Shown piece by piece: positions 25,885 to 29,799 of a DNA stretch of 40,717 nucleotides; within the stretch, counting starts at the first letter, position 1, and every line of letters starts with the position of its first letter. Origin of the DNA: an uncultured Saprospiraceae bacterium (lineage in GTDB: Bacteria; Bacteroidota; Bacteroidia; Chitinophagales; Saprospiraceae). A model generated the notes under the pieces. The model worked only from the letters and a program-made list of their open reading frames with translations. It ran no database searches and was not told where the DNA came from. Both the position numbers and the translations under genes were made by a program. The stretch lies in assembly GCA_938041325.1 (NCBI GenBank), contig CALIAG010000042.1:1-40717 (forward strand), in the 5' to 3' direction.

Positions 25885-27462
25885 TTGTTAGATCTTTTAA
25901 TTGTCATTAGCTATTTCATTATTATTTTTCTTACAGCAATTACTGGAAGATCTGGTAAGGATGTAAGCAAGGAAGAATATTTCTTGAGTTCCAGAAATTT
26001 GCGTTGGCCATCCATTGCCTTGTCTACGATTGCTACCAACATCAATGGTTATCAATTTTTAGGGATGATGGGATCAGCCTACTTATTTGGTCTGGCGCAA
26101 GCAAGTTTAGAAATCAATGCGATTCAAGGAATATTAATGGCTGCATTTATTTTTGTTCCATTGTATTTGAAAGAAAGAGTCATGACGATAACCCAGTTTA
26201 TAAAAAAACGATTGGGTGAGCGTGTTGCTCTTTTTTATTCCATCTCTAATATAATTTTATTTTCCACCATCACTTTAGGAGCTGCCTTATTTTGGGGTGC
26301 TTATGCCGCGGATCTAGTATTTGAAGAATACTTGTCATTTTTGCATGAAGATCGAATTATAAGAATTGCCATATTGATTGGTGGATTGGGGATTTTCTCT
26401 GCAACCTATACTTATTTGGGCGGCTTAGCCGCTGTAGTTAAAACAGATATTATTCAATTTGTCATTTTGCTTTTAGGAGGTTTTGTTGTCTTATTTGTAT
26501 CCATTCATCATTTAGGAGGATGGAAACAATTGTATATAAAAACACCGGAATTGATGCATTTGCATTTGCCTGCTGATCACAAAACATTGCCTTGGATTCA
26601 TATTTTCGGATTGTTTTTATTGAACATAAATTACTGGTGTGCCAATCAAACAGTTATGCAAAGGTCCTTGGCGGCTAAAAACCTGCGGGAAGCTCAAGTA
26701 GGTTTAATGGTTGGTGGATTAATGAAATACGTCATGGCTGTTTTAATCGTAGTTCCAGGTATTGCTTTGGTCGGAATTTTAGGTGAAAACGGATTGACAG
26801 AACCTGACTTAGCTTTTCCGTATTTGGTAAAAAACTATTTACCAGTTGGTTTGAAAGGGATAATCCTTTGCGCCCTTTTTGCCTCCTTGATGAGCACAGT
26901 AGACTCCACTTTCAATTCATTGGCAACTTTATGGTCCATAGATATTTACAAAGAGTACATTAAAAAAGATGCAACAGATAGGCAGATCGTTCGAGCAGGG
27001 CGGAATACGATTCTAATTACTTTGATAACAGGAGTATTAATGGGATTCGTTTTATTATATGTCAAATTTGAAAATCCAGAAGCTGCTTTTACACATACTT
27101 TAAATGAGTTGAGGTATTATATTAACTGCGGAATTGTCGTTTTGATAACTGCATCCGCCTTTATGATTGCACCGAATCATCGTCTTGCTTTATTTGCATT
27201 TTTATCCACTATCCCGCTTCATCTATTGTTTAAAGGATTTAACTTTGGCTTTATTTCCTTTGATGGATTCTTTCCAGATATGAATTATTTTGTTCGAGCT
27301 GGCTGGGTAATCGTTATTGCTTTTGCTCTTTTGAGTACATCTGCTTTCAAAGAGGGCTGGACGAAATGGAAAGATTTAATTCAATATGAAAATAAAGAAA
27401 TTGCACAAGTAGGAATGGGACTAGCTGTTTCATTGCTTGCATTGCATATCATTTTTCACTAA
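25885..27462 (+). CDS. Sodium:solute symporter (SSS family)
   Basis: A 525-residue inner-membrane transporter with about thirteen to fourteen hydrophobic segments, of the SGLT/SSS family, coupling sodium entry to uptake of a sugar or similar solute. Recognisable stretches are EEYFLSSRNLRWPSIALS and TNINGYQFLGMMGSAYLFG near the N-terminus, and LFASLMSTVDSTFNSLATL in the helix that carries the sodium-site Ser/Thr residues. The start is TTG at 25885. An in-frame TAA stands 15 bases upstream, and TTG gives LDLLIVISYFI, where family members begin, so the unusual start is well supported. The aldo-keto reductase gene follows after 20 bases. The substrate is unknown; a sulfosugar or related polyhydroxylated compound would fit the neighbours. 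Confidence 0.88.
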   Translation: MLDLLIVISYFIIIFLTAITGRSGKDVSKEEYFLSSRNLRWPSIALSTIATNINGYQFLGMMGSAYLFGLAQASLEINAIQGILMAAFIFVPLYLKERVMTITQFIKKRLGERVALFYSISNIILFSTITLGAALFWGAYAADLVFEEYLSFLHEDRIIRIAILIGGLGIFSATYTYLGGLAAVVKTDIIQFVILLLGGFVVLFVSIHHLGGWKQLYIKTPELMHLHLPADHKTLPWIHIFGLFLLNINYWCANQTVMQRSLAAKNLREAQVGLMVGGLMKYVMAVLIVVPGIALVGILGENGLTEPDLAFPYLVKNYLPVGLKGIILCALFASLMSTVDSTFNSLATLWSIDIYKEYIKKDATDRQIVRAGRNTILITLITGVLMGFVLLYVKFENPEAAFTHTLNELRYYINCGIVVLITASAFMIAPNHRLALFAFLSTIPLHLLFKGFNFGFISFDGFFPDMNYFVRAGWVIVIAFALLSTSAFKEGWTKWKDLIQYENKEIAQVGMGLAVSLLALHIIFH

Positions 27463-27482
27463 AAATACTTTAAAGAATAATA

Positions 27483-28376
27483 ATGAATTTAGAAAACAAA
27501 GCATATAACTCAGCAGTCATTGTAGGCACGATGAGATTGGGAGTCTGGGGTGTAAAAATGAATACGAATGAATTGGAGCGTTTTATAGATGAATGTGTTG
27601 AAATGGGAGCAACAGATTTTGACCATGCTGATATTTATGGCTTTTACACGGAAGAAGAAGAATTTGGAGCAGTTTTAAAAAGGAGAAAAGATTTACGTTC
27701 CAAAATAAAAAATACAACAAAGTGTGGAATCAAATTGATTTGCGATAATCGCTCTGACCATAAAATAAAATCTTACGATTCTTCAAAAAAACACATTCTT
27801 TCTTCCGCGGAGCAATCATTGAAATATCTAGGAGTTGAAGCACTGGATATTTTGCTTTTACATCGACCCGATTATCTAATGGATCCACATGCAGTTGCAG
27901 AAGCTTTTGAGGAGTTAAAAAGCAAAGGTAAAGTCAAACAGTTTGGTGTTTCTAATTTCAGTCCTTCTCAATTTGATTTGCTCCATTCCTTTACTCCCTT
28001 AGTTACCAATCAAGTGGAAATCTCTGTCTTGCACCGGAATGCCTTTCAGGATGGAACCTTGGATCAATGCATTAAAAAAGGCATTCAGCCAAGCGCTTGG
28101 TCTCCTTTTGGAGGAGGCGCATTGTTTTCGAGTTCCGAAGATGAAAATATTTTAGCCATTAAAAAGGTTGTAAATGAATTGGCTGAAAAACACGAATGTA
28201 AGTTTGATCAGTTGCTAATGGCCTGGTTGAAGAAGCATCCATCAGATATAGTACCCGTTCTAGGTACAACAAAAGCAAGTAGAATCCAAGATGCTATTAA
28301 TTCAAAATCCATTAAATTAAGTCAAGAGGAATGGTATGAGATTTGGCAAGCGGCTATTGGAACAGAAGTGGCATAA
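27483..28376 (+). CDS. Aldo-keto reductase, YdhF-like
   Basis: A 297-residue NAD(P)H-dependent oxidoreductase of the (beta/alpha)8 aldo-keto reductase superfamily. The tetrad is visible: D47 and Y52 in FDHADIYG, K80 in TTKCGI, and H127 in ILLLHRPD. Further family matches are KGKVKQFGVSNFSPSQFDLL, VTNQVEISVLHRNAF and IVPVLGTTKASRI near the cofactor site. The pattern is closest, by memory, to E. coli YdhF. It should reduce an aldehyde or ketone to an alcohol in the cytoplasm. It is probably cotranscribed with the upstream symporter (20-base gap). The downstream gene is an SsuD-like monooxygenase, whose aldehyde product could be its substrate; SmoB of the sulfoquinovose monooxygenase pathway is an aldo-keto reductase with this kind of role. 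Confidence 0.88.
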   Translation: MNLENKAYNSAVIVGTMRLGVWGVKMNTNELERFIDECVEMGATDFDHADIYGFYTEEEEFGAVLKRRKDLRSKIKNTTKCGIKLICDNRSDHKIKSYDSSKKHILSSAEQSLKYLGVEALDILLLHRPDYLMDPHAVAEAFEELKSKGKVKQFGVSNFSPSQFDLLHSFTPLVTNQVEISVLHRNAFQDGTLDQCIKKGIQPSAWSPFGGGALFSSSEDENILAIKKVVNELAEKHECKFDQLLMAWLKKHPSDIVPVLGTTKASRIQDAINSKSIKLSQEEWYEIWQAAIGTEVA

Positions 28377-28480
28377 GCTCCTCTATTTTAAATTAATTTT
28401 TAAACAACGGAAACATCTATGAATTTCGGCAACGGTTTTAAATAGATTTCGTACTTACAGTGCTTAAAAAAACGCTGACT

Positions 28481-28517
28481 TTTTCTATAAAGGTTGCTCC
28501 TCTGGAGCTATGTTGTA
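28481..28517. repeat. Short palindromic interspersed-repeat-like unit
   Basis: The unit reads TTTTCTATAA, then a hairpin with arms GCTCC (28496-28500) and GGAGC (28504-28508) around TCT, then TATGTTGTA. Its layout resembles the GCTCC/GGAGC palindromic units with TTGTAG-type ends that I recall scattered between genes in several Bacteroidota. A related half unit lies 70 bases further on. No coding or mobile gene is attached. Family membership is from memory and unverified. Confidence 0.4.
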
Positions 28518-28570
28518 AAATCAATTGCATTTTTTTATATCGTAACTTGCGTGGAAATTAACCTAAAAAA

Positions 28571-28596
28571 ACGCCAACGGAGCGACACCTTTGTAG
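28571..28596. repeat. Partial copy of the same palindromic repeat-like unit
   Basis: The sequence ACGCCAACGGAGC followed by GACACCTTTGTAG repeats the right half of the unit at 28481-28517 (GGAGC-N-A...TTGTA) with a degenerate left arm. The left part of the unit (TTCTATAA) is missing, so it is either an eroded copy or a chance resemblance. Confidence 0.3.
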
Positions 28597-28650
28597 TCAA
28601 TTCTGAAAGAGATTTTTAAATTCCTTAGGACGAAATAGAAAATATAAGAA

Positions 28651-29799
28651 ATGAATATAAGATCAAAAGAACTCAAAGGCGCAGAAGTATCTTGGTTTGC
28701 TCCAATCTGCAATGGAGATGATGAGTACCTTTCAAAGCATGACTTAAGGTATAAAAGCGATTGGTCAAATACTTCGAATGTATTGCTCACCGCGGATCTA
28801 TTGGGCTATAGAAATATCCTTTGCCCCTCTTCTTACCAAGTCGGACAAGATACCATGACTTTCGCTTCAGCTGTTGCACCTTTGACTCAAAACATCAACT
28901 TGCTTACGGCAATCCGTTGCGGTGAAGTACATCCGCCGATGCTCGGCAGAGCGATTGCGACTTTGGATCATATTCTCAAAGGCAGATTGACCATCAATAT
29001 AATTTCTTCCAATTTGCCGGGTACAGAGTTAAGCTCAGAAGCTAGGTATCAAAGATCCAGAGAAGTTATTGAAATTCTAAAACAAGGATGGACCCAGGAT
29101 TACATTGACTTTAGTGGAGAGTTTTACAATTTAAAATTGGACAATACAGATCCTGTAAAACCTTACCAACAAAATGGAGGACCCTTACTTTATTTTGGAG
29201 GTTATTCACCGCCGGGGGTAGATTTGTGCGCAGAACATTGTGACGTTTATTTGATGTGGCCTGAGACCGAAGACAAGATTTTAGGATTAATGAAAAACAT
29301 GAGTGACAAAGCCGCAGCATATAACCGAAGCGTTGATTTTGGATTAAGAGTGCATGTTATTGTTCGAGAAACAGAAAGTGAAGCCAAGGCTGCTGCACAA
29401 AAACTAATGAGTTATGTCGATGATGAGCGTGGGGAAGAGATTCGTTTGCGAGCTTTGGATGGAAAATCTTATGGCGTTTCCAGACAGTCTTCAATGAGAG
29501 AAATGGCGGATGACGATGGTTTTGTTGAAGAACATTTGTGGACGGGTATTGGTCGAGCGCGATCTGGTTGCGGCGGAGCAATTGTAGGAAATCCTGATCA
29601 AGTGCTAGCAAAAATCAACAGATATATGGAAATGGGAATCCGATCTTTTATATTTTCGGGTTATCCTCATCTAGACGAATGCAAGCTTTTTGGTAAATAT
29701 GTTTTGCCTCACATCCCGACTTTTTCTATGCCACATGTACAAGGAAGAATTCCTGTGGGCCAACCAATGAGTCCATTAGCGGCAGGAATACGGAAGTGA
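28651..29799 (+). CDS. SsuD-like FMNH2-dependent (alkane)sulfonate monooxygenase, LLM family
   Basis: A 382-residue bacterial-luciferase-like monooxygenase, the length of SsuD (about 380). With FMNH2 and O2 such enzymes cleave a C-S bond, giving an aldehyde and sulfite. Similarity to SsuD runs end to end: PPLYFGG-type segment LLYFGGYSPPGVDL, FGLRVHVIVRETESEA, HLWTGIGRARSGCGGAIVG and IFSGYPHLDECKLFG. Catalytic positions matching SsuD Arg226, His228, Arg297 and Tyr331 appear as R233, H235, R304 and Y338. The Cys54 position seems not to be kept (SYQVGQD here), so the substrate pocket differs. Soluble, cytoplasmic. It follows the aldo-keto reductase by 274 bases on the same strand. No flavin reductase gene, needed to supply FMNH2, is visible in the window. 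Confidence 0.88.
   Translation: MNIRSKELKGAEVSWFAPICNGDDEYLSKHDLRYKSDWSNTSNVLLTADLLGYRNILCPSSYQVGQDTMTFASAVAPLTQNINLLTAIRCGEVHPPMLGRAIATLDHILKGRLTINIISSNLPGTELSSEARYQRSREVIEILKQGWTQDYIDFSGEFYNLKLDNTDPVKPYQQNGGPLLYFGGYSPPGVDLCAEHCDVYLMWPETEDKILGLMKNMSDKAAAYNRSVDFGLRVHVIVRETESEAKAAAQKLMSYVDDERGEEIRLRALDGKSYGVSRQSSMREMADDDGFVEEHLWTGIGRARSGCGGAIVGNPDQVLAKINRYMEMGIRSFIFSGYPHLDECKLFGKYVLPHIPTFSMPHVQGRIPVGQPMSPLAAGIRK

Follow-up and report, generated by a model that had tools for sequence, protein, structure and literature searches.

Can three adjoining genes of an uncultured Saprospiraceae bacterium import a sulfosugar and remove its sulfonate? The stretch of DNA analysed here (the window, 40,717 nucleotides) is one contig, C42, of a 6.3-Mb assembly that is 91% complete. 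A sequence-only reading had noted an SSS-family sodium symporter, an aldo-keto reductase (AKR) and an SsuD-like monooxygenase in series on one strand, and had proposed that they form a minimal desulfonation module for sulfoquinovose (SQ) or a similar sulfonate. The arrangement is as it described, with three intact open reading frames on the + strand. They encode an SGLT-type sodium:solute symporter (SSS; 25885..27462; 525 residues; Pfam SSF, 165.6 bits), an AKR of the YdhF/SmoB subfamily (27483..28376; 297 residues; Pfam Aldo_ket_red, 185.7 bits) and an FMNH2-dependent, SmoC-like LLM monooxygenase (LLM; 28651..29799; 382 residues; Pfam Bac_luciferase, 167.3 bits), for which we propose the roles of Na+/SQ importer, 6-dehydroglucose reductase (the SmoB/SquF role) and SQ monooxygenase, respectively. 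The symporter starts with a TTG codon, in agreement with the N-termini of its homologues. With a probability of roughly 0.77, we consider the trio to be the core of a Bacteroidota version of the sulfo-SMO/sulfo-ASMO pathway, by which SQ is broken down aerobically and sulfolytically. The proposal of a sulfosugar module was therefore largely right, with SQ as the inferred substrate.

Against solved structures, the window LLM scored 502 bits with 7oh2 (58% identity over 379 residues, E 1.7e-149) and 482 bits with 7olf (55% identity), compared with 226 bits for the MsuD-type 7jv3 and 200 bits for E. coli SsuD. We take 7oh2 and 7olf to be structures of SmoC, reportedly the work of Sharma et al. in 2022, and 7bby to be SmoB; the PDB titles of the three read only ‘alkanesulfonate monooxygenase’, ‘methanesulfonate sulfonatase’ and ‘aryl-alcohol dehydrogenase’. 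Support for the SmoC label comes from Roseobacter loci that group with 7oh2 and 7olf and carry the sulfo-SMO gene set of LLM, AKR, flavin reductase, GH188-motif protein and TRAP transporter. In a tree of 61 proteins, with SH-aLRT as branch support, the window LLM fell among those of Bacteroidota, a clade united with SmoC and relatives from Chloroflexota (support 86). Sister to these is a clade that we call type B, the window LLM's own group being type A; proteins of Novosphingobium and Rhizobium lie outside, and SsuD and MsuD split off with a support of 100. The phylogeny suggested as a check by the sequence-only reading thus places the window LLM on the same side of the branch as SmoC, apart from SsuD and not with non-sulfonate LLM enzymes, and its relationship is SmoC-level. 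Furthermore, W203, R233, H235, R304, Y338 and H340 align to the catalytic positions of SsuD and MsuD; all six are conserved, being kept in every type A and SmoC row, while type B has leucine in place of H340.

SsuD and MsuD share with the window LLM their family, the use of FMNH2 and these catalytic W/R/H/R/Y/H positions, but they are only ~32–38% identical to it, form a separate clade and often stand with genes of an aliphatic sulfonate ABC importer and without an AKR. Could the LLM nevertheless scavenge sulfur as SsuD does, releasing sulfite from mixed alkanesulfonates for assimilation while the symporter and the AKR do other jobs? Its best named NCBIfam match is indeed TIGR03565 (alkanesulfonate monooxygenase), and solo LLM loci exist. 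However, the score of 252 bits is far under the equivalog cut-off of 518 and SsuD/MsuD stand apart in the tree, so we rejected an assignment as SsuD; in addition, the symporter is co-inherited with the LLM in an operon-like layout, and sulfite dehydrogenase genes beside the module in relatives point to an excess of sulfite. Scavenging is, in our judgement, a quite improbable function.

The neighbourhood survey comprised 80 loci of named genomes, mostly Bacteroidota, 53 of them with flanks of 3 kb or more on each side of the LLM. Identities of Bacteroidota LLMs to that of the window left a clean gap between the family (at least 52%) and other LLMs (at most 34%). Within 3 kb of the LLM, 44 of these 53 loci held the SSS and 16 the AKR; 15 had both and 8 had neither. 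In no flank did a member of the window SSS or AKR families occur beyond 3 kb. This recurrence close to the LLM indicates that the trio is grouped beyond chance. The SSS was downstream of the LLM on the same strand at 54 of 56 loci and the AKR directly upstream at 26 of the 27 that have it nearby, with median gaps in relatives of 14 bp (SSS–LLM) and 28 bp (AKR–LLM). Among 40 relatives, an SSS of at least 60% identity occurred in 8 of the 9 genomes that have a type A LLM and in none of the 31 that lack one (Fisher p=1.2e-7, uncorrected for kinship). Since the trio is found together across Saprospiraceae and Flavobacteriaceae and is co-inherited, the expectation that its genes would be conserved together was borne out. 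In genome G397, the SSS and AKR are still adjacent while the LLM sits on another contig. At a separate locus (L043:5617-8891), an LLM 87% identical to that of the window is adjoined by a GPH-type MFS sugar transporter and a GH1 glycosidase rather than by an SSS and AKR.

The window departs from its relatives in gene order, which is SSS-AKR-LLM here and AKR-LLM-SSS there, and in spacing: 20 bp separate the SSS from the AKR, and 274 bp (28377..28650, + strand) the AKR from the LLM. The larger gap contains an imperfect palindromic repeat (28437-28637) with ~20 partial copies at other sites of the genome (20 matches at E<=0.001), possibly a small mobile element by which the operon was broken up. 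Such a repeat-bearing gap, against the usual 28 bp, could also be read as dividing two units, a sugar-uptake pair of SSS and AKR having ended up by chance beside an LLM gene that has nothing to do with it. Yet the same three families stand together with short gaps in many genomes; this conserved neighbourhood refutes chance as a general explanation and makes it very improbable in the window. A scan for promoters and terminators found sites that were not clearly in excess over shuffled sequences. The trio is flanked upstream by a divergent gene for an NHL/PKD/CHU_C protein and downstream by one for an unrelated membrane protein, so the module in the window is these three genes alone and the description of it as minimal holds.

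The window AKR matched 7bby with 41% identity over 265 residues (phmmer E 7.6e-60), and its residues D50, K80 and H127 were invariant in 42 aligned rows. In a tree, the AKRs of Bacteroidota formed a separate clade (support 97) that did not clearly group with either SmoB or YdhF. We therefore set aside strict orthology with SmoB; as a member of its own clade, the window AKR may, judging from its sequence, fill the SmoB role without it. An operational definition of sulfo-SMO, given in a 2026 survey (PMC13372026), calls for SmoB and SmoC homologues within 10 open reading frames, with at least 30% identity, E<=1e-50 and 70% coverage. The window has a SmoC homologue (58% over 379 residues) with a neighbouring SmoB homologue (41% over 265 residues), and the flavin reductase (SmoA) that the definition treats as optional has its counterpart in genes outside the window.

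The closest solved relatives of the window SSS by sequence are vSGLT and SGLT1/2. Its predicted model (pLDDT 88.5) matched the SGLT1 fold with a Z-score of 41, within a range of 35–41 for vSGLT and human SGLT1/2. The residues Q69, E88, N260, Y263 and K294 of vSGLT (2xq2, a K294A mutant), to which we ascribe sugar-binding and gate roles, correspond to Q57, E76, N247, Y250 and K281 of the window SSS, each of which is invariant across 58 homologues or deviates in just one of them; S364/S365, of the Na2 site, align to S337/T338. By SSF family, SGLT fold, sugar-site and Na2 residues, the window protein is therefore an SGLT/vSGLT-type symporter, and the first proposal, with a sodium symporter where the ABC transporter would be, holds. 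Its family alone has an invariant R410 and H404, both absent from type B symporters and from vSGLT; N407 takes the place of vSGLT Q428. As a guess from these alignments, R410 and H404 might bind the sulfonate.

Wider clusters in relatives bear on the substrate and on the product. In Flavobacteriaceae (L091, L093, L094, L099 and partly L079 and L110), a LacI regulator and a divergent PF03358 FMN reductase flank the trio, and SusC/SusD genes lie near several of these clusters; together with the SGLT sugar-site residues kept in the symporter, the LacI and SusC/SusD genes favour a sugar as substrate. Cultured isolates that carry the cluster exist, among them Flavobacterium sp. ASW18X. A SorA-like sulfite dehydrogenase and a monohaem (CxxCH) protein are encoded directly behind the SSS in Flavobacteriaceae L091, L093 and L099 and Saprospiraceae L051. 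Because such a pair adjoins related clusters and also occurs in the window genome, sulfite is favoured as the product. SQ in particular is favoured by two Chloroflexota loci (L084, L089) in which an LLM 71–73% identical to that of the window adjoins a Gfo/Idh/MocA GH188-like protein. This protein scored 206–226 bits with SqgA, a GH188 sulfoquinovosidase (8qc2, 8qc3; PMC10755693), its solved relatives include both structures, and in its motif EHRxPFLxK the Arg, Leu and Lys by which GH188 binds the sulfonate are retained (residues as in PMC11465081).

Large FG-GAP/UnbV_ASPIC repeat proteins also flank the clusters of marine Flavobacteriaceae L091, L093 and L094. Type A loci L034/L045, L079, L110 and L115 have an oligo-1,6-glucosidase-like GH13 gene beside the LacI regulator or the LLM, and no known sulfoquinovosidase. 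We rejected this GH13 as a new sulfoquinovosidase: its closest solved relatives are oligo-1,6-glucosidases (675 bits) and the copy in the window genome (58% identical) is on a different contig, next to SusC/SusD-like genes, which suggests nothing out of the ordinary.

The module might instead act on another sulfonated sugar or polyol, such as sulfofucose, whole sulfoquinovosyl glycerol or dihydroxypropanesulfonate, by the same C–S cleavage and AKR reduction. A genome in which no sulfoquinovosidase was found would suit this, as would the type B sister clade: its other transporters and its lack of H340 suggest that substrate ranges may differ within the wider LLM family. The window LLM, however, groups with SmoC of the characterised type rather than with type B, and the GH188-like protein paired with the LLM in Chloroflexota resembles a family of which one characterised enzyme is specific for SQ glycosides (PMC10755693). 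We consider a different sulfonate unlikely as the main substrate, although a more serious contender than scavenging or chance.

Type B loci themselves (L028, L029, L030, L031, L032, L041 and L157) encode LLMs 52–57% identical to that of the window, and their neighbours are another SSS with a TonB receptor, or amino-acid permeases. At L028, a SorA-like enzyme and cytochrome c adjoin the LLM. Type B possibly desulfonates a different, perhaps amino, sulfonate. At L031 (12732-17841), the LLM gene lies near genes for proteins that by eye are serine acetyltransferase-like, cysteine synthase-like, family 2 encapsulin-like and a probable cysteine desulfurase, a group that may link desulfonation to sulfur storage.

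The sequence-only reading had seen neither a flavin reductase nor a sulfoquinovosidase in the window, and had suggested a search of the genome for both. The flavin reductase is absent from the window itself, but PF03358 and PF01613 proteins are present outside it, and a PF03358 gene on contig C305, which shares 50% identity with its counterpart in the Flavobacteriaceae clusters, is a candidate FMN reductase. A SorA-like gene runs across the ends of contigs C126 and C249, which overlap with identical sequence, and is followed by a gene for a CTACH cytochrome c; the two are 69% and 50% identical to the related-cluster pair. In contrast to the reductase, the sulfoquinovosidase was not found in the 91%-complete genome either, whether of the GH188 type (best score 32 bits) or of the YihQ-type GH31 (128 bits, where the cut-off is 553). 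Either free SQ is therefore imported, or another glycosidase is used, or the gene lies in the missing 9%. These two negatives weigh against an SQ pathway, as do a support of only 86 for the branch that joins the window LLM clade to SmoC, several close LLMs (86–87% identical) without an adjoining AKR or SSS, and an AKR that is no closer to SmoB (206 bits) than to YdhF (219–230 bits) and does not nest with SmoB.

In the SQ pathway that we favour, the symporter would import SQ or a small SQ glycoside coupled to Na+. The LLM, with FMNH2 from a separate FMN reductase (the candidate on C305), would cleave the C–S bond oxidatively to give 6-dehydroglucose and sulfite, as expected from SmoC and SquD, and the AKR would reduce 6-dehydroglucose to glucose, as expected from SmoB and SquF. 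A SorA-type molybdenum enzyme would then oxidise sulfite to sulfate and pass electrons to a monohaem cytochrome c, a part that we assign to the C126/C249 pair from the place of its counterparts in related operons. The substrate, the direction in which it is carried, the path of the electrons and the involvement of SorA are all inferred. More tentatively, and at odds somewhat below even, the symporter family would be a dedicated SGLT-kind Na+/SQ cotransporter that reads the sulfonate through Arg410 (and His404), beside the position of vSGLT Gln428, and SSS-LLM-AKR would be a route, widespread in Bacteroidota, for mineralising SQ aerobically, with sulfite oxidation by SorA as the last step.

Among the closest known systems is the sulfo-SMO pathway of Agrobacterium (SmoABC), with its SmoC-type LLM (58%/55% identity), AKR, separate flavin reductase and sulfite as product (predicted for the window). 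It differs in having an ABC importer instead of an SGLT-type Na+ symporter and in its AKR, that of the window being in its own clade; window-related clusters use a reductase of the FMN_red type rather than the Flavin_Reduct type, some include SorA, and the window genome yielded no sulfoquinovosidase. Roseobacter sulfo-SMO clusters (Ruegeria THAF33, Roseivivax THAF40) have LLMs 58%/56% identical to that of the window and a directly adjoining AKR, as here, but also a TRAP transporter, GntR regulator, GH188 and flavin reductase, where the window has an SSS and no GH188. The sulfo-ASMO system of Novosphingobium (SquD, SquF) shares the AKR-LLM pair and likewise has its flavin reductase outside the cluster, but its LLM is ~50% identical and falls outside the clade of SmoC and Bacteroidota, and a TonB receptor and MFS transporter lie nearby instead of an SSS (the strain compared is related to, not identical with, the characterised one).

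SQ is a sulfosugar of plants and algae. About 10 billion tons of SQ are produced per year (PMC10755693). According to two reviews, sulfo-ASMO is found chiefly in alpha- and beta-proteobacteria (PMC9594981, PMC12890257), and the 2026 survey adds Actinomycetota and Spirochaetota (PMC13372026). As searched here, the texts of these three papers name neither Bacteroidota nor an SSS importer for sulfo-ASMO, although the survey's supplementary tables may list Bacteroidota, and literature searches that combined SQ with either Bacteroidota or sodium symporters found no account of such a system. The sulfo-SMO/ASMO chemistry is known, while the SSS importer and the phylum Bacteroidota are apparently undescribed in that literature. 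If our reading is true, Bacteroidota, which are major consumers of algal matter, would be able to mineralise SQ fully, an SGLT-type sulfosugar transporter would become testable, and SSS-LLM-AKR would serve as a gene signature for detecting SQ-mineralising Bacteroidota.

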